From a virus, in IMG/VR virus record IMGVR_UViG_3300015360_000012, positions 1 through 38,935 of that record: DNA of 38,935 nucleotides. One strand, 5' to 3'. Each line of letters starts with the position of its first letter. The first letter of the stretch is position 1. Shown in pieces: positions 1 through 38,935 of the stretch. The position numbers and the translations under genes are program-made. Below the pieces are notes generated by a model that saw only the letters and a program-made list of their open reading frames with translations, had not been told where the DNA came from and made no database searches.

Positions 1-123
1 CGCCTTCAATCCGCCCTCGTTGCAACGCCGCATCCAATTCCCGAGGAATTTCAGCCGCGCCTTTTTGCGCCCGTTGGGTCGTTCGAATTCCCACGAATGC
101 GCCTTTTTCAATTCCCCGAAACG
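1..123. repeat. Left copy of 123-bp terminal direct repeat
   Basis: Bases 1-123 are identical to 38813-38935, which marks an assembly overlap of a circular molecule (or a terminally redundant, circularly permuted one). Joining the ends gives 38,812 bp and restores one uninterrupted reading frame across the junction, which supports circularity over a chance repeat. Confidence 0.95.
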
Positions 124-834
124 ATCCACACACGGAACCGCCGCCCGCCACAATTCCATTGCCTGCACGAGCCGGACCCGGCCCGTCCTTGGGTCAACGC
201 TGTTTAACTGCGTGTCGTCCCGGTACAGCGGGAGGTCTTTCAGCCAGACGTTTGCTTGCTCCCTGTCTTTGCATACCTGCGCCGTTTCGGCCGGCTGCGG
301 GGCATCGCCCCCAGCTATTCTTTTGACGTTGTACTTCTGGTGTACTTCTTGAAGTACTTCTTTATCTTGCGCCCTTGTTTGCGCACCTGTTTGCGCACCT
401 GTTTGCGCACCTACTATCGAAAACGTATTGATTTCTGGCGAGTTTAACCGCGTTAGTGACCGCGTTAGTGACCGCGTTAGTGACCGCGTTAGCTGGTATT
501 TCTCAAAATTAAGCAATTTCACCCGCCGTAAACTGTACTTTCCAACCTTCACGGTTGTTGGGTTAATCATGCCAAGCAGCGTCATTTTATTCAGGATTGT
601 TCTTAAATTCTGGTAGGAGATAAGGCACTGCTCTGCAAAATCACGTTCCGAAAATACACATTCCCCGCGGTCTATTTGAATTTCTATTCCAGACTTTTCG
701 TGTAAAAAAGCGCGCGGTTTATAATTAACACCCATCATCAATTCCGTCCAAACCGAACGCCCTGCCAACGTCTTCCAGATTTCCGAATCCCGAACCTTCC
801 GATGCAACGCGACATACCCTCTACTTTGTCTCAT
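1..834 (-). CDS. Phage replisome organizer / replication initiator, N-terminal part (continues at 38812-38612)
   Basis: The frame opens at ATG 834 and runs to base 1 without a stop (278 codons). It continues across the circular junction to the stop at 38612, for 344 residues in all. Residues 1-105 resemble the winged-helix N-terminal domain of phage replisome organizer (DnaD/RepO-like) proteins: a start-proximal LHRKVRDSEIW stretch, an FLHEKSG segment, an R-G-E-C turn, a recognition-helix region and a closing LLNFEKYQ. Residues about 114-162 are built of short tandem repeats (LTRS, GAQT) encoded by iteron-like DNA, as in lambda O, where the origin lies inside the initiator gene. The C-terminal half is basic with an FLGNWMRRC segment and probably contacts helicase or loader. 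The leader is GGGAGGCTCGCTG-ATG. It is third in a tandem set of related genes. The family call is firm; the origin role is inferred. Confidence 0.8.
   Translation of the reverse strand, partial: MRQSRGYVALHRKVRDSEIWKTLAGRSVWTELMMGVNYKPRAFLHEKSGIEIQIDRGECVFSERDFAEQCLISYQNLRTILNKMTLLGMINPTTVKVGKYSLRRVKLLNFEKYQLTRSLTRSLTRSLTRLNSPEINTFSIVGAQTGAQTGAQTRAQDKEVLQEVHQKYNVKRIAGGDAPQPAETAQVCKDREQANVWLKDLPLYRDDTQLNSVDPRTGRVRLVQAMELWRAAVPCVDRFGELKKAHSWEFERPNGRKKARLKFLGNWMRRCNEGGLKA
331..494. repeat. Three iteron-like tandem arrays inside the initiator gene (candidate origin)
   Basis: Three arrays lie within 164 bp. GTACTTCT occurs at 331-338, 342-349 and 354-361. GTTTGCGCACCT occurs as three perfect 12-bp units at 377-412, with a degenerate unit just before. 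ACCGCGTTAGTG occurs at 447-458, 459-470 and 471-482, with a 10/12 copy at 483-494. All lie mid-gene in the putative replication initiator, between the DNA-binding domain and the C-terminal half, the position of the lambda origin within O. The repeats are direct and about one helical turn long, as iterons are. Initiator binding is inferred; a purely protein-level repeat is the alternative. Confidence 0.6.
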
Positions 835-919
835 CAGCGAGCCTCCCGTATCTTTGATTGTTTACTAAAGCGTTTGACTTTTTATCGGCCCTAATCCGTT
901 CTTAAAAAACTCCTCCGCC
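740..919. repeat. 180-bp direct repeat, copy 1
   Basis: Matches 1184-1363 with two differences over 180 bp, at an offset of 444 bp. It spans the 3' end of one gene, its stop, the leader with the ribosome binding site, and the 5' end of the next gene. Confidence 0.95.
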
Positions 920-1278
920 TCCATTTTCTGCGCCGCGTTATATTTCTCAAAATTCAGCATCGTAACAACCGTCAAACGGTTGGCCCCTTTGCCAATAATT
1001 TCCAGCTTTACCATTTCTAATTTCTGCATTTTTTCCAGCATGTTTCGGGCTGATGTATAACTGACCAAACATTCATCCGCAAAAGGCCTAACGCCGATCA
1101 CGCATTGACCCCGTGCTATTTCAATTTGTGTTCCAGAAGTCTGGTGTAGGAAGGAGAACGGCGTGTGTGCGGTTTTGAGCAATAATTCCGTCCAAACCGA
1201 ACGCCCTGCCAACGTCTTCCAGATTTCCGAATCCCGAACCTTCCGATGCAACGCGACATGCCCTCCACTTTGTCTCAT
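865..1278 (-). CDS. Stand-alone winged-helix paralogue of the replication initiator N-terminus
   Basis: 137 residues starting at ATG 1278 with leader GGGAGGCTCGCTG. It has the same layout as the first ~105 residues of the 344-residue initiator. The first ~33 residues are nearly identical (LHRKVRDSEIWKTLAGRSVW), the middle is clearly diverged, and it ends in a closing LNFEKYN. It lacks the repeat region and C-terminal half. Its last 17 residues (AEEFFKNGLGPIKSQTL) equal those of the upstream gene 1309-1638, because a 180-bp DNA repeat covers both junctions. It probably binds DNA, perhaps competing with or regulating the initiator; that role is inference. Confidence 0.8.
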   Translation of the reverse strand: MRQSGGHVALHRKVRDSEIWKTLAGRSVWTELLLKTAHTPFSFLHQTSGTQIEIARGQCVIGVRPFADECLVSYTSARNMLEKMQKLEMVKLEIIGKGANRLTVVTMLNFEKYNAAQKMEAEEFFKNGLGPIKSQTL

Positions 1279-1363
1279 CAGCGAGCCTCCCGTATCTTTG
1301 ATTGTTTACTAAAGCGTTTGACTTTTTATCGGCCCTAATCCGTTCTTAAAAAACTCCTCCGCC
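1184..1363. repeat. 180-bp direct repeat, copy 2
   Basis: Partner of 740-919 with two mismatches. Near-identity at the gene junctions beside diverged gene centres points to recent unequal exchange or gene conversion between tandem paralogues. Confidence 0.95.
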
Positions 1364-1638
1364 GTGTCTATCCCGTACAGCACTTGGATATATAAAACCC
1401 CCCGCACTTCAGCGACCGAAATAAACCCTAACCGTTGCAGTTTTTTCAGCGCATACCGCGCTTCTTCTGGCGTGTCTAACCGCGCCTTTTCCCTGAGGAA
1501 TTCCAGACCGAACGCCGTCTGCATAAACACGCGTTTTGCCCATTCTCGTTTATGGCTATTTTGAAAAAGAGCCCCAAACATACGTGTGCCATCCCCACCG
1601 ATGGATTTATTCGGGTGCGTTTTGATGCTGATTTTCAC
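1309..1638 (-). CDS. Small winged-helix-like protein, first gene of replication operon
   Basis: 109 residues from GTG 1638, chosen because AAGGAGG sits 7 bases upstream (1646-1652). An in-frame ATG at 1701 has no binding site and would put the leader dyad inside the gene. The middle (about residues 45-85) has helix-rich spacing with LDTPEEARYALKKLQRLGF followed by a beta-hairpin-like segment, suggestive of a winged helix. The C-terminal 17 residues are shared with the next gene through the 180-bp repeat. Likely an early regulator or DNA-binding accessory. The function is not recognised beyond this. Confidence 0.65.
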   Translation of the reverse strand: MKISIKTHPNKSIGGDGTRMFGALFQNSHKREWAKRVFMQTAFGLEFLREKARLDTPEEARYALKKLQRLGFISVAEVRGVLYIQVLYGIDTAEEFFKNGLGPIKSQTL

Positions 1639-1665
1639 TCGGTGGCCTCCTTGGGCAAAAAAATA

Positions 1666-1745
1666 CCCGACGGTCTGAAAATGAACCTTGGCGGGTTTCA
1701 TTTACGTAATCGACCGTCGGGAAATCTAACCTCGGTATTATACCG
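1666..1745 (-). promoter_or_regulatory. Promoter-like region with palindromic -10 and leader dyad
   Basis: On the minus strand a perfect TATAAT (1737-1742) lies within the 13-bp near-palindrome CGGTATTATACCG (1733-1745). No good -35 lies 16-18 bp upstream. The leader then holds a 10-bp perfect inverted repeat, CCCGACGGTC (1666-1675) with GACCGTCGGG (1712-1721), ending about 14 bases before the AAGGAGG of gene 1309-1638. A weak -35 with dyads over the -10 and leader suggests operator control or an RNA hairpin. The start site is inferred. Confidence 0.45.
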
Positions 1746-1807: not shown

Positions 1808-2893
1808 TTACCCTACGTTTGTAAACGAATCCCTTGTTTTCATTGCATTTGTAAGCAGTATTTCTTTTATGTGCGTCGCAATCGCACGTATAAATAATGG
1901 GGGAACTGAATTTCCAATACGTGCCCATTGATTTTTTAATGTCCCATTAAAAATAAATTTATCAGGAAATGAAGAGCACCGTTTAATGGCCGCGATCGAT
2001 AAAAAGGCGCGGGTATCGGGATGTAACAACGCTCTTTGTGTGCAAATCGTAGGGCACGGCTCTGTCCAGCTTAAACGCCGCCAACTAAAATGCGAATGTC
2101 GCGCCCCGAGATCTGTTAATACGATGGCCATACCGCCCCCCCGTTTAATGAGGGAATAGGCGGCCACGCCTTTTTTGATACTTATGACAGGGCCAACACT
2201 TTCAATTCCTTGGCAAGCGTCGATAAACGTATAAGGGGTAGTAACAGACGGAGAAGGATGGCCTGGTGTTCCCTCAAGGTCATTGCGAATTCCGACAAAA
2301 ATGATGCGTTGCCTGGATTGAGGAACCCCATACCACATGGCATTTAAAATACGCGCTGCAACGCGGTATCCGGAGTTGCGCATCGTTTTAAGAATCTCAG
2401 CGAAAACTAATTTCATTTCGCCCCTAACCATACCGGACACGTTTTCCATCACAATGACTTTGGGTTTAAAGATGTCAATGACGCGCAGATATTCACGAAA
2501 CAATTGATTTCGCGGGTCTTCGATAATGCGGTTACCCGCCACCGAAAACCCTTGGCAAGGCGGCGATCCATCCAAAACATCAAGTTCTCCTGGTTTAAGA
2601 CGCGCTAAAGTCAGGGCCTCCGTAGCCGAAAGTCGCTGGATATCTCCATGATAAAGCGGGATATCCGGGAAATTCGTTCGGAAGGTTTCGGCGGCATGAT
2701 CGTCCCATTCAACCGCGAGACGTTCATCAAAACCCGCCATCGCATAACCCAGAGAAGATCCACCGCATCCAGCGAAAAGCGAAACGACGGTCGGCGCAGT
2801 GTTGGAACGTGGAGCTTGGGCGGTTGTCCAGGCGGCGGCCAGCCCAGTGGCGTACCCTACGGGAGTTTGAACATCTTCTCGCAATGGGGGCAC
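1808..2893 (-). CDS. DNA (cytosine-5-)-methyltransferase
   Basis: 361 residues. The class motifs are in order: I, FAGCGG (about 40-45, S-adenosylmethionine binding); IV, SPPCQGFS with catalytic Cys about 113; VI, MENVSG (about 149-154); VIII, QSRQRIIFVG (about 192-201); and X, IGNSVPP near 326. The target-recognition region between VIII and X is short, about 110 residues, so a short target site is likely. The GTG start at 2893 lies inside the end of the ParB-like gene (37-bp overlap), with GGAGG 4 bases upstream; a later start is possible because the first ~33 residues precede the fold. No restriction enzyme is adjacent, so it is an orphan phage methylase, probably protecting phage DNA or marking replication. 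Confidence 0.93.
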   Translation of the reverse strand: MPPLREDVQTPVGYATGLAAAWTTAQAPRSNTAPTVVSLFAGCGGSSLGYAMAGFDERLAVEWDDHAAETFRTNFPDIPLYHGDIQRLSATEALTLARLKPGELDVLDGSPPCQGFSVAGNRIIEDPRNQLFREYLRVIDIFKPKVIVMENVSGMVRGEMKLVFAEILKTMRNSGYRVAARILNAMWYGVPQSRQRIIFVGIRNDLEGTPGHPSPSVTTPYTFIDACQGIESVGPVISIKKGVAAYSLIKRGGGMAIVLTDLGARHSHFSWRRLSWTEPCPTICTQRALLHPDTRAFLSIAAIKRCSSFPDKFIFNGTLKNQWARIGNSVPPLFIRAIATHIKEILLTNAMKTRDSFTNVG

Positions 2894-3516
2894 GTGACCT
2901 CCGCTCCAGGTTTATAGACAGACTGAAAGCTGTCAGCAATCCCTTCATCTAGAAGTGGAGGCAATTGGTTTGGAATTTCCAATGCCGCTAAGAGTTGCTG
3001 TAGGGCGTCAGGTTCATAGCCGGCGGGCATTGGACCGGCGAGCGACTTCAATAGCTCTGCTAAGGCCAGCTTGTCAGTGTCGTGCATTTCGCCGACGCGG
3101 TCCATGCTAGCTAAAATCCTTTTTTCGGTTTCTTCGTCGACGTCAATAATAGCCGCCGGGACTTGTTGCCCAGAATTAAGCGCGACTTCAATTCGACCAT
3201 GCGCATCAATCACTTTACCTGTGCGTTTATTAAATAACGCTAACATGGAAGGCAACCAACCAAATTCATCCAACGATTTTTCAAGTTCGCGAAGTTGAAC
3301 TTCTGGATGGATTTTCCAATTGAGAGGATGGGGCGACATCGTTTTAGGATCAAGCCAGGCATACCCGATAGGCTTAGTCTTAAACCCCACCATAAACCCG
3401 TCTGACATTTCCTTTTCTGGTCCCACGCACACGGGCGGTTGTTGGGCGTCTTTCATTTTGGCGGGGGTTGGTTTTAAATCTTTCAGATTCATCTCTACAG
3501 TTTCGTGTTTAATCAT
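2857..3516 (-). CDS. ParB/Srx N-terminal-domain protein
   Basis: 219 residues, ATG 3516, with CGGAGGACAA upstream. Residues about 60-130 match the ParB-N/Srx fold: PHPLNWKIHP, a helix, an LALFNKRTG strand, then DAHGR in the place of the DGHHR/GxxR nucleotide-binding signature, and a V/I-rich strand. The C-terminus carries a CPHC half-knuckle. In phages such proteins sit next to DNA methyltransferases, as here, and act as nucleotide-dependent DNA-binding or nicking partners. No ParA is visible, so true partitioning is less likely. Confidence 0.8.
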   Translation of the reverse strand: MIKHETVEMNLKDLKPTPAKMKDAQQPPVCVGPEKEMSDGFMVGFKTKPIGYAWLDPKTMSPHPLNWKIHPEVQLRELEKSLDEFGWLPSMLALFNKRTGKVIDAHGRIEVALNSGQQVPAAIIDVDEETEKRILASMDRVGEMHDTDKLALAELLKSLAGPMPAGYEPDALQQLLAALEIPNQLPPLLDEGIADSFQSVYKPGAEVTCPHCEKMFKLP

Positions 3517-4618: not shown

Positions 4619-5346
4619 GGTTCCTCCTCCAATAAACTCACCCCATAGTTCAGGATTTTAAGGTGCATCTGTTTTTTGGCGTCGGCGGCGGCGGCGTTGG
4701 CTTTGGCGTCGGAGTAGGCGACGAGGTGGTAAGCGGCGGCGTAATCGGCGGCGACGGATGCGTCGGCGGCGTTGGCGTAGGCGTATGCGGCTGCGGCGTC
4801 GGCGGCGTAGGCGGCGGCGTAGTCGGCTGATGCGTAGTAGTCGGTGTAGGCTGCTGCTGCGGTTGCTGTGGCGGCGGCTGAGGTGTAGGCTGAGGAGTAG
4901 GCGGCGGCGGTTGCTGTGGCGGCGGCTGAGGTGTAGGCTGAGGAGTAGGCGGCGGCGGCTGCTGTGGCGGCGGCTGAGGTGTAGGCTGCTGCGGTTGCTG
5001 TGGCGTCGGCTGAGGAGTAGGCTGCTGCGTAGGCGGCCCTTCTTGTCGCCACCGTATCATTCGCCAATACAGCCTTTGCAGCCTCAATAGCCTGGCGCGG
5101 CAGTAGATCTTTTGGATTTTCTGCCTCAAAAATATGTATCACCTGCTCAGCTGAAAATATCGCATAGGACAAACACTGCCGTCTGGTCATCACACGCACA
5201 ATAAGCCAATTTGCCAAGCCTATTTTGTCGTTCTCAATCAGGTTTATCAGTCCGTCGACTGGATCTGTAATTCCCTGAGCAAGAAACCATTTTTTGACGT
5301 CACTGCACGCATCATGACGTTCCAACCATTTCCGATTGATAATCAG
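4615..5346 (-). CDS. Alanine-rich repeat protein with putative-immunity-type N-terminus
   Basis: About 243 residues. The N-terminal ~95 residues (WLERHDAC..VKKWF, then WLIVR and LPRQAIEAAKAVL) resemble the phage-borne putative immunity-protein family, which is followed by long AAYAA-type helices. Here ~110 residues of Ala/Tyr/Ser/Thr repeats lie between that and a short C-terminus. I place the start at CTG 5346: it forms a CTGA overlap with the stop of a 14-codon ORF, GGAGG lies 7 bases upstream, and the extension gives the INRKWLERH stretch expected before the conserved core. TTG 5325 is the conventional alternative but has no binding site. The role in phages is unknown. Confidence 0.75.
   Translation of the reverse strand: MIINRKWLERHDACSDVKKWFLAQGITDPVDGLINLIENDKIGLANWLIVRVMTRRQCLSYAIFSAEQVIHIFEAENPKDLLPRQAIEAAKAVLANDTVATRRAAYAAAYSSADATATAAAYTSAAATAAAAAYSSAYTSAAATATAAAYSSAYTSAAATATAAAAYTDYYASADYAAAYAADAAAAYAYANAADASVAADYAAAYHLVAYSDAKANAAAADAKKQMHLKILNYGVSLLEEEP
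4850..5030. repeat. 48-bp tandem repeats inside alanine-rich gene
   Basis: Near-identical 48-bp units begin at 4864, 4912 and 4960, followed by a shortened 36-bp copy at 4996. Each 48-bp unit encodes 16 residues, so copy-number change would keep the frame. The whole stretch is low-complexity GCG/GTA triplets. Confidence 0.85.
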
Positions 5347-30918: not shown

Positions 30919-31449
30919 TCATAGAGTCCTATAACTCCACTTGGAAATATCATTGTTTCTTCGCACCTGATTCTTTTTTCTGTTTCCTCCATCACGTGCT
31001 GGCAGTCTTCTGGGGCGAGGTAACTCCGCGCCGGGGTAAGGCGTGATCGAGACTTCAATTCTCGAATCACCTTTCTCAGGTTCTCCAAGGTCGGAGGTAC
31101 AGCCTCGCACCCATTGTTGTGAATCGTCACCAAGGATGCCCGCTTTAACCAGAGCATCAAGAATAAACTTTGCACCACTAAATACGTTGTCAGGGTCGCG
31201 GCGACGGTCACGCTCCACATATCGAATATGAATCGAAACAGCGCAGTCAAACCGATGCACACGGGCAACCAGAATACTGGTGCAAATGGATCGAATCGCA
31301 CTTGCGCGAATAATAGATCCCCGATATACGCGGTTGCCGTATTTACTGCGCCACGGATTCCGGTCAGCTTGAATAATTTCATTAAGACTCGGCAACCTTC
31401 CCGGAATTGAAAACGTTACGGCACAAGCAAGATCACAACTTTTTCCCAT
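30919..31449 (-). CDS. RusA-family Holliday junction resolvase
   Basis: 176 residues from ATG 31449 (GGAG nine bases upstream). RusA features are the N-terminal FSIPGRLPSLNEI strand-turn, a basic region, then RRRDPDNVFSGAKFILDALVKAGILGDD with the conserved Asp residues, and a closing RIEVSITP strand. The ~38 residues after SITP are basic and low in order, so an overlapping frame there may be used as well. It would resolve recombination junctions before packaging, matching RecT and the exonuclease. Confidence 0.85.
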   Translation of the reverse strand: MGKSCDLACAVTFSIPGRLPSLNEIIQADRNPWRSKYGNRVYRGSIIRASAIRSICTSILVARVHRFDCAVSIHIRYVERDRRRDPDNVFSGAKFILDALVKAGILGDDSQQWVRGCTSDLGEPEKGDSRIEVSITPYPGAELPRPRRLPARDGGNRKKNQVRRNNDISKWSYRTL

Positions 31450-31628
31450 ATGTCCATGCTCCGCGCCAATGCTGTGTTCATCAGGTTTTGAATGATCATG
31501 CGCCGCGCCGTTGCCGTTGGCTTTTGGTAGTCCAGCTCGTATCGTTCGATCTCGTTCATCAACCATACACGCGCCGCCTCTCTGTCATGGCAATTCAGCA
31601 CTTCGTTCAATTGTTGTTCGTAGGTCAT
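31416..31628 (-). CDS. Small helical protein
   Basis: 70 residues from ATG 31628 (MTYEQQLNEVLNCHDREAAR). The longer in-frame ORF starts inside the neighbouring gene. It is helical throughout, with an IIQNLMNTALARS segment. It overlaps the RusA start by 34 bases. Function unknown. Confidence 0.6.
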   Translation of the reverse strand: MTYEQQLNEVLNCHDREAARVWLMNEIERYELDYQKPTATARRMIIQNLMNTALARSMDIWEKVVILLVP

Positions 31629-35317: not shown

Positions 35318-35947
35318 CTAGCGGCTCTCTCTTGCTTGCAATCTGACTTGCCCGGTCCCAGGGTTCGGAATCAGGGCCGGTACTGGAACGATGGCTGGAA
35401 CAATGGGAGCAATGGGAGCAATGGGCCCGACGGGTGCAAATGGATCTACGGGAACCGCTGGCTCAGTACAGCCTAAAATAATGTCGCACGAATTCCCATT
35501 CGGGCAGCACGCACCGAAACAATTAAACGTCCCGACGCTTGGGCAGCAATGCCCGCCGGAGATGTTAGTCGCGCAGTATTCAGCTGCGCTATTGCAACAC
35601 GCACTTTGGCACGCGACATCGGTAGGCCCCGTGCAAAATCCAGGTCCCGGCGTTGGTGTCGGCGTTGGTGTCGGCGTTGGTGTCGGCGTTGGTGTCGGCG
35701 TTGGTGTCGTGTTAGGAATACAATCGCACCCATTGTCACAGGTGCCCGCTCCTCCATTACATGACTGGCCCGTGTTAGGGGTTGTACAGGTCACTGCGCA
35801 CACTGTCGCTATGCAGAACCCGCTATACCGCACTCCGCATTCATTCGCTAACTCACCGATAGGACAATCCGATAAGAATGTACATGCTGCTGCGACGGCG
35901 AACGCGGGAGCCAAAAGCAACACCATTAATGCCCGTAATGTTCTCAT
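35318..35947 (-). CDS. Exported Cys-rich protein with Thr-Pro linker
   Basis: 209 residues, ATG 35947, with GAGGGTAAATAAC upstream. A signal peptide (LRALMVLLLAPAFAVAAA) is followed by a Cys-rich domain of about 60 residues (10 Cys), a (TP)n linker of ten or so repeats near 80-100, a second Cys-rich domain (about 100-163, 11 Cys with CC pairs) and a Pro/Val/Ile-rich tail. This two-knot layout resembles extracellular proteins of environmental bacteria and is very unusual in phages. The opposite strand has a long open frame that is only a Gly/Val-rich shadow of the linker. Confidence 0.75.
   Translation of the reverse strand: MRTLRALMVLLLAPAFAVAAACTFLSDCPIGELANECGVRYSGFCIATVCAVTCTTPNTGQSCNGGAGTCDNGCDCIPNTTPTPTPTPTPTPTPTPTPTPGPGFCTGPTDVACQSACCNSAAEYCATNISGGHCCPSVGTFNCFGACCPNGNSCDIILGCTEPAVPVDPFAPVGPIAPIAPIVPAIVPVPALIPNPGTGQVRLQARESR
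35649..35708. repeat. Five perfect 12-bp repeats encoding the TP linker
   Basis: GGCGTTGGTGTC repeats five times from 35649. Each unit adds Thr-Pro-Thr-Pro, so the linker length could vary by slippage without frame loss. Confidence 0.9.
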
Positions 35948-38237: not shown

Positions 38238-38615
38238 TTAAGCATCCGGACCCCGATAATTAGGGGGAATGCTCACCGCGCCTGTTTTGGGCGAACCTAC
38301 CCCTGAATCCGTTCGCCTGGGCGCATCCTGCGCGTTGTTGTTGGCCGCTGAACCGCTGGTGGGTTTCAATATCGCGTGTTCCCCGGTCTTCGGTAGGCCT
38401 AGACCGGCCCGCGCTAGAATGACGGCTTCGGTCAGGCGTTTATGCGCGGCCATCATGTCGATTCCCGGATGAATCTGAAATTCGAACGACGATATCGACC
38501 GCAACGTGGATCGCATCTTACGGATTTCCGCAATCAGTTTGTAGGCGTCTTCGTGTAGTCCTTCCCCGCTTTTTGGATTGCGCTTCTCCATCTCCGCCAA
38601 TTCGTCGTCCGTCAT
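38238..38615 (-). CDS. Helical protein after the initiator
   Basis: 125 residues, ATG 38615 overlapping the initiator stop (ATGA). Helices (DDELAEMEKRN, EDAYKLIAEIRKMRSTLRSI; MMAAHKRLTEAVILARAG) fill residues 1-75. The rest is a polar, Pro-rich tail that runs into an in-frame TAA and then a zinc-ribbon frame. Possibly a helicase-loader-position accessory; no Walker motif, so not a loader ATPase. Confidence 0.65.
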   Translation of the reverse strand: MTDDELAEMEKRNPKSGEGLHEDAYKLIAEIRKMRSTLRSISSFEFQIHPGIDMMAAHKRLTEAVILARAGLGLPKTGEHAILKPTSGSAANNNAQDAPRRTDSGVGSPKTGAVSIPPNYRGPDA

Positions 38616-38935
38616 AATGCCCTGCCTTTTTTGGTTCCGGCTGGTAACTGTGCTTTAACGGTACCGATCATTTGCAAAATCTCCGCATGATCTTCTGGAC
38701 TGTGCTCTTTTTCAACGTATTTTACGCTCGCCACAACAGGCACTAATCCGCCAAACGATTCAGACGATTCAGACTTCCGCCGCGGTATCGGCATGAATCG
38801 TTCCTGCGTCGCCGCCTTCAATCCGCCCTCGTTGCAACGCCGCATCCAATTCCCGAGGAATTTCAGCCGCGCCTTTTTGCGCCCGTTGGGTCGTTCGAAT
38901 TCCCACGAATGCGCCTTTTTCAATTCCCCGAAACG
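38612..38935 (-). CDS. Replisome organizer / replication initiator, C-terminal part (start at 834)
   Basis: This is the 3' part of the gene starting at 834. Bases 38813-38935 duplicate 1-123, so only 38612-38812 is new (66 codons and stop). It includes ERFMPIPRRKSESSESF and a helical EHSPEDHAEILQMIGTVKAQL near the C-terminus. A TTG here (38923) can look like a start, but the frame is open across the circular junction. Confidence 0.8.
   Translation of the reverse strand, partial: RFGELKKAHSWEFERPNGRKKARLKFLGNWMRRCNEGGLKAATQERFMPIPRRKSESSESFGGLVPVVASVKYVEKEHSPEDHAEILQMIGTVKAQLPAGTKKGRAL
38813..38935. repeat. Right copy of 123-bp terminal direct repeat
   Basis: Identical to 1-123; see the left copy. 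No other sequence is duplicated at the ends. Confidence 0.95.

Follow-up and report, generated by a model that had tools for sequence, protein, structure and literature searches.

We analysed a stretch of viral DNA of 38,935 nucleotides (the window) whose two ends have an identical 123-bp direct repeat in common (1-123 and 38813-38935), so that it appears to represent a full circular genome of 38,812 bp. The gene under study, ORF1, starts with an ATG at 834 on the minus strand, crosses the circular junction and encodes 344 amino acids in total, and ORF2 and ORF3 lie beside it. Directly upstream of this block a gene for a C5 cytosine methyltransferase overlaps one for a ParB-like partition protein (1808-3516). 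Around the circle, about 8 kb separate the initiator from the gene for a RusA-like Holliday junction resolvase (30919-31566). GGC-rich nested repeats of 9, 12, 36 and 48 bp occupy 4729-5029, in a gene that matches PHROG 38757 and, weakly, a family of tail fibres. In its structural genes the window comes closest to a phage known from a 13-kb fragment (L030), which has no replication module. No close relatives of ORF1, ORF2 or ORF3 were found in the viral and genome contigs searched, and phages that have the window's RecT in common carry no detectable relative of the ORF1 initiator. The features of ORF1 are as follows, WH standing for winged helix.

1-834, minus strand: ORF1, the initiator gene, codons 1-278, continuing into 38612-38812; matches to PHROG 2514 and PHROG 345
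38612-38935, minus strand: rest of ORF1, codons 238-344; 38813-38935 duplicates 1-123 (terminal direct repeat)
490-834, minus strand: WH DNA-binding domain of ORF1, residues 1-114, predicted from homology and AlphaFold2 (pLDDT 92-98 over residues 11-110)
577-615, minus strand: recognition helix in the model, residues 74-86, with the Gln75 codon at 610-612; among the WH columns, mutual information with iteron type peaks at 75
447-492, minus strand: array C, CTAACGCGGTCA x 3.8, 12 bp, 100%, encoding LTRS; predicted ORF1 sites by the Gln75-TAAC rule
367-412, minus strand: array B, GGTGCGCAAACA x 3.8, 12 bp, 94%, encoding GAQT; a second unit, unrelated to that of C
331-362, minus strand: array A, three copies of AGAAGTAC spaced 12 and 11 bp apart; probably belongs to the unwinding element
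329-368: least stable 40-mer of the putative origin region by thermodynamic stability, 68% AT, 98.0th percentile of the locus, overlapping array A
294-315, minus strand: possible hairpin CTGGGGGCGATGCCCCGCAG after the arrays, weak (z -1.6 to -1.8)

The three short direct-repeat arrays that a sequence-only reading of this DNA had placed in the initiator gene are all present, on the minus strand, and the LTRS and GAQT runs that it had assigned to the repeats are indeed encoded by arrays C and B, respectively. Together the arrays lie within codons 115-168 of the 344-codon gene, starting where the WH domain ends, with the third AGAAGTAC copy of array A in a different reading frame. The arrays are real and far above chance: an 8-mer that occurs three times at 9-14 bp spacing is found at four places in the 38.8-kb genome, three of which are arrays A, B and C, where dinucleotide shuffles lead one to expect 0.0 such places (0.017 for 7-mers). 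When synonymous codons were permuted with the protein held fixed, arrays B and C were never matched (0 of 2000 permutations each), and array A was matched 147 times in 2000 (7%). The sequence-only reading had counted three different iteron units, of which the part concerning B and C stands. As variants of one unit they match at best at 6 of 12 positions, a value reached by 81% of shuffles, and we rejected that relationship. We also rejected array A as a third iteron family, as its unit is without the AAC core, synonymous shuffles match it at the rate just given, and it sits at the position of an unwinding element. Two iteron families (C and B) with a third repeat at an AT-rich unwinding-element position are a better reading of the region than three families.

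ORF1 matches PHROG 2514, a DnaD-like helicase loader family, over residues 4-142 (E 2.8e-17) and the O-like PHROG 345 (E 4.5e-5), and its WH domain finds HK022, HK620 and others by tblastn (E about 2e-3). We modelled this domain with AlphaFold2 using an alignment of 53 sequences. Its structural matches in BFVD include replisome organizers of phages and, at TMt 0.88, an O protein; weak Foldseek matches to solved structures are to winged-helix regulators (GntR- and MarR-type) and plasmid initiators, including 4PT7 and 5KBJ. Judged by homology and predicted fold, ORF1 is a lambda-O/DnaD-like initiator with an N-terminal WH domain. Scans of ORF1 gave no Pfam match to RepA_N up to E 1 and, within residues 1-278, none to a C-terminal DnaD/DnaB_2 domain, the last 107 residues being scanned against PHROGs only. 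No helicase loader (P) or helicase gene was recognised when the tested ORFs, among them the downstream neighbours, were scanned against PHROGs and Pfam.

Repeats at the equivalent place are general among homologues of ORF1. Among the window and its distant homologues, 61 non-redundant sequences in total, significant phased DNA repeats directly follow the WH-coding part in 59, with a period of 11 bp in 40 of those 59, and a second set gave a phased array after the WH domain in 38 of 43 non-redundant sequences, 30 of them with the 11-bp period. Over both sets 70 of 97 arrays repeat at exactly 11 bp, and the repeat unit varies from phage to phage. These homologues strongly back the idea that the region is a candidate origin laid out like O/ori. 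The units are single-turn repeats of 11-12 bp, not longer semi-palindromic iterons as in lambda. Four lambdoid O genes (L007, L008, L056 and L057) have 11-bp arrays at about +8 after the WH-coding part, a second array at about +75 that is clear in three of the four, and, beyond the AT tract, a hairpin with a 10-bp stem.

The letters of the iterons follow a single residue of the recognition helix. In the first set of sequences Gln75 was accompanied by TAAC in 10 of 12 cases, against 1 of 48 otherwise. Before the new loci were fetched, we recorded the prediction that Gln or Met at this position goes with TAAC, and Lys, Arg, Ser or Thr with GCAA. The second set alone (43 new representatives) paired Gln or Met with TAAC in 23 of 25 sequences against 2 of 18 (p 8e-8), and both sets together in 34 of 36 against 2 of 33 (p 6e-15). 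The Lys part of the prediction also held in the second set, where GCAA was present at least twice in seven of eight; for Arg and Ser the predicted GCAA failed there, Arg going with GAC instead and Ser75 with mixed iteron types. Over both sets, GGC occurs with Lys75 in 11 of 14 cases against 0 of 55, and GAC with Arg75 in 7 of 8 against 4 of 61. Aligning the units on their CAAAC core suggests a refined rule for the letters before that core (AA with Gln, GA with Arg, GG with Lys), a rule drawn from the second set itself.

Column 75 is by far the best predictor of iteron type in the WH domain (z 18.7, next column 6.2). When the helix is left out of the tree building, the tree shows 19 changes of residue 75 (Gln/Met or not) and 18 of TAAC. 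Six independent pairs on supported branches of this poorly resolved tree agree in almost every pairing (median p 0.031); Lys and Arg provide too few pairs for such a test. This covariation is the strongest evidence that the WH domain would read the repeats of its own gene. In the window, ORF1 has Gln75 and TAAC occurs four times in array C and not at all in array B. The Gln75 rule is extrapolated to the window, whose WH domain sits on a long branch well away from the sequences on which the rule is based, and we estimate that TAAC would fall in one of two 12-bp units by accident in about 5-10% of cases, which is not rare. We found no account of a residue-75 rule in the literature searched, where coverage is thin for subscription journals.

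Homologues also have an AT-rich least stable 40-mer after the array, at a median percentile of 0.999 of the locus and mostly 75-93% AT, and the unstable stretch often carries 9-bp purine-rich repeats. The AT tract of the window is weaker than in most of them (68% AT, 98th percentile). Since the least stable stretch of the window (329-368) is array A, this array is likely part of the unwinding element and is better read as such than as a third iteron family. GC skew, which had been proposed as a check on the origin, gave no origin signal: the detrended extremes fall at 12.8 and 30.3 kb, almost all genes of the window lie on one strand, and the result is uninformative either way.

We read the arrays as probably the replication origin of the phage, lying inside the gene of its own initiator (probability roughly 0.8), on the strength of what comparison with homologues establishes for array position, phasing, constraint at the DNA level and covariation between helix and iterons. 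That ORF1 binds the arrays, that the DNA opens and that the arrays are the origin in use is what we infer from there. The most likely mechanism, by analogy with lambda O and SPP1 gp38 (PMC7466680, PMC6316719), would have ORF1 bind the 12-bp repeats of array C by the recognition helix of its N-terminal WH domain, where Gln75 would read the adenines of TAAC. ORF1 lined up on array C would put the duplex under strain, and the neighbouring stretch of lowest stability, at array A, would open. Host or phage replication proteins would then be recruited to the opened stretch for helicase loading, a step that host proteins may serve because the scanned ORFs revealed no helicase loader. Array B would provide further sites, built on another unit.

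The presence of a second unit has to be considered together with the genes next to ORF1, where the following features lie.

740-919: 180-bp direct repeat, copy 1, covering the end of ORF2, the intergenic stretch and the start of ORF1
865-1278, minus strand: ORF2, a WH-only paralogue of ORF1, with predicted recognition helix VSYTSARN and Thr at position 75
1184-1363: 180-bp direct repeat, copy 2, covering the end of ORF3, the intergenic stretch and the start of ORF2; 99% identical to copy 1 and 444 bp apart from it
1309-1701, minus strand: ORF3, whose last residues, AEEFFKNGLGPIKSQTL, are common with ORF2; weak WH resemblance

ORF2 is 56% identical to ORF1 over the WH domain, which is uninterrupted, and differs from it in the recognition helix. 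Its WH domain is fused to the tail of ORF3, as the joint of a duplication would give, and we therefore take the 180-bp repeat and the fusion as a probable sign of a 444-bp tandem duplication. The 99% identity turns abruptly to strong divergence at codon 33, which suggests that gene conversion, or else recombination with a diverged relative, took place after the duplication. A structure model of ORF3 (pLDDT 42) was of no use. Two unrelated iteron units were found in the window alone among 104 representatives; eight others have two arrays, in which the same or a similar unit is repeated. A convincing adjacent WH paralogue was likewise found in the window alone, with none in the other loci (194 examined within about 1.5 kb).

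These features could be attributed to history alone, with ORF2 as a passive by-product of the tandem duplication and array B either read by ORF1 or decaying. The exact 444-bp register between the copies fits this account, as does the make-up of ORF2 from a WH domain and the ORF3 tail; an intact ORF2 whose WH domain is uninterrupted at such identity, and an array B that is nearly perfect, do not, and we hold the account as a tentative one, short of even odds. An origin with two proteins and two kinds of site is rather unlikely in our judgement, and would elaborate the origin reading instead of competing with it. After the duplication, ORF1 (Gln75) would read array C and ORF2 (Thr75) array B, with ORF2 as a co-initiator or a rate-setting competitor, and initiation would depend on both or be tuned by both. 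That the window alone combines two unrelated units with an adjacent WH paralogue favours this proposal, as does the difference between the two recognition helices. The CGCAAAC-type array of B is otherwise seen only in L061, and because L061 has Ser75, the residue closest to the Thr75 of ORF2, it suggests that ORF2 may read array B. Against it, there is one case of each, ORF2 is without the Arg-Thr of the rule's class and could bind nothing or array C, and ORF1 alone may read both arrays.

Replication slippage would account for the repeats in another way, as a low-complexity linker between the WH domain and the C-terminal domain in which the repetition of the DNA has no function. The clean GAQT and LTRS runs come from in-frame repetition in arrays B and C, and perfect identity alone could reflect recent slippage, since a perfect 12-bp array of 5.2 tandem copies also lies at 35648-35709. 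There it encodes a Thr-Pro linker in an unrelated protein with a signal-peptide-like start, and it provides a control for repeats made by slippage. The arrays at the equivalent place in homologues, however, run through all three reading frames and give no protein repeats. Because their 11-bp period falls out of frame, it is the DNA and not the protein that is conserved, the opposite of the homologues with protein repeats and without DNA repeats that the sequence-only reading had named as grounds for dropping the origin. Slippage also cannot explain why the letters of the repeats track a residue of the recognition helix, and it is very improbable as the whole explanation. Least probable is that the arrays are operator sites for transcription regulation by the WH proteins, a reading to which the resemblance of the fold to GntR- and MarR-type regulators lends itself and against which stand the place of the arrays deep inside the gene, the unstable stretch after them and the conservation of both across O homologues.

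The origin reading places the window close to known systems. Lambda O has an N-terminal WH domain, and its gene has iterons in the middle followed by an AT-rich unwinding tract (PMC7466680); the window, too, has iterons within the gene of an initiator with an N-terminal WH domain, past the stretch that encodes this domain. Measured from that stretch, the two arrays of HK022-type relatives lie at about +8 and +75, close to the +0 and +80 of the window. Lambda differs in having a single iteron type, with units that are longer and semi-palindromic; in the window there are two unrelated units of 12 bp, an AT tract that is weaker, a WH-only paralogue next to the initiator and no recognised P-like helicase-loader or helicase gene, and the window's putative origin would be a variant of the lambda O/ori kind. 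In SPP1, direct repeats and an AT-rich unwinding element lie inside the initiator gene (gp38 or G38P, oriL; PMC6316719), a placing that the putative origin repeats of the window share. SPP1 also uses another origin, oriR, and encodes a helicase loader and a helicase, neither of which was recognised in the window's scanned ORFs. The N-terminal WH domain of RepA_N initiators of plasmids and PLE satellites covaries with the origin iterons (PMC8263062, PMC7145576). Unlike the situation in the window, PLE iterons are non-coding and the covariation is one of whole domains, not of one residue, and ORF1 is without a RepA_N Pfam match. Phage DnaD-like loaders of PHROG 2514 (Listeria vB_LmoS_188, Enterococcus EH-TP1) have a homologous WH domain and 11-bp arrays followed by purine- or AT-rich repeats, and some carry a DnaB_2 C-terminal domain, which was not detected in ORF1.

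The analysis places the likely origin of an uncultured phage within about 200 bp. The residue-75 rule, which has been partly checked on a second set of homologues, may serve to find the origins of related phages and to predict part of a binding sequence from one residue. Since the predicted binding sites of the initiator lie in the gene that encodes it, gene and origin would move as one, in keeping with the exchange of phage replication units as modules. The putative two-unit origin with its WH paralogue could provide a way to test how a replicon changes its origin specificity—the reader is duplicated, one copy changes, and both kinds of site are kept.
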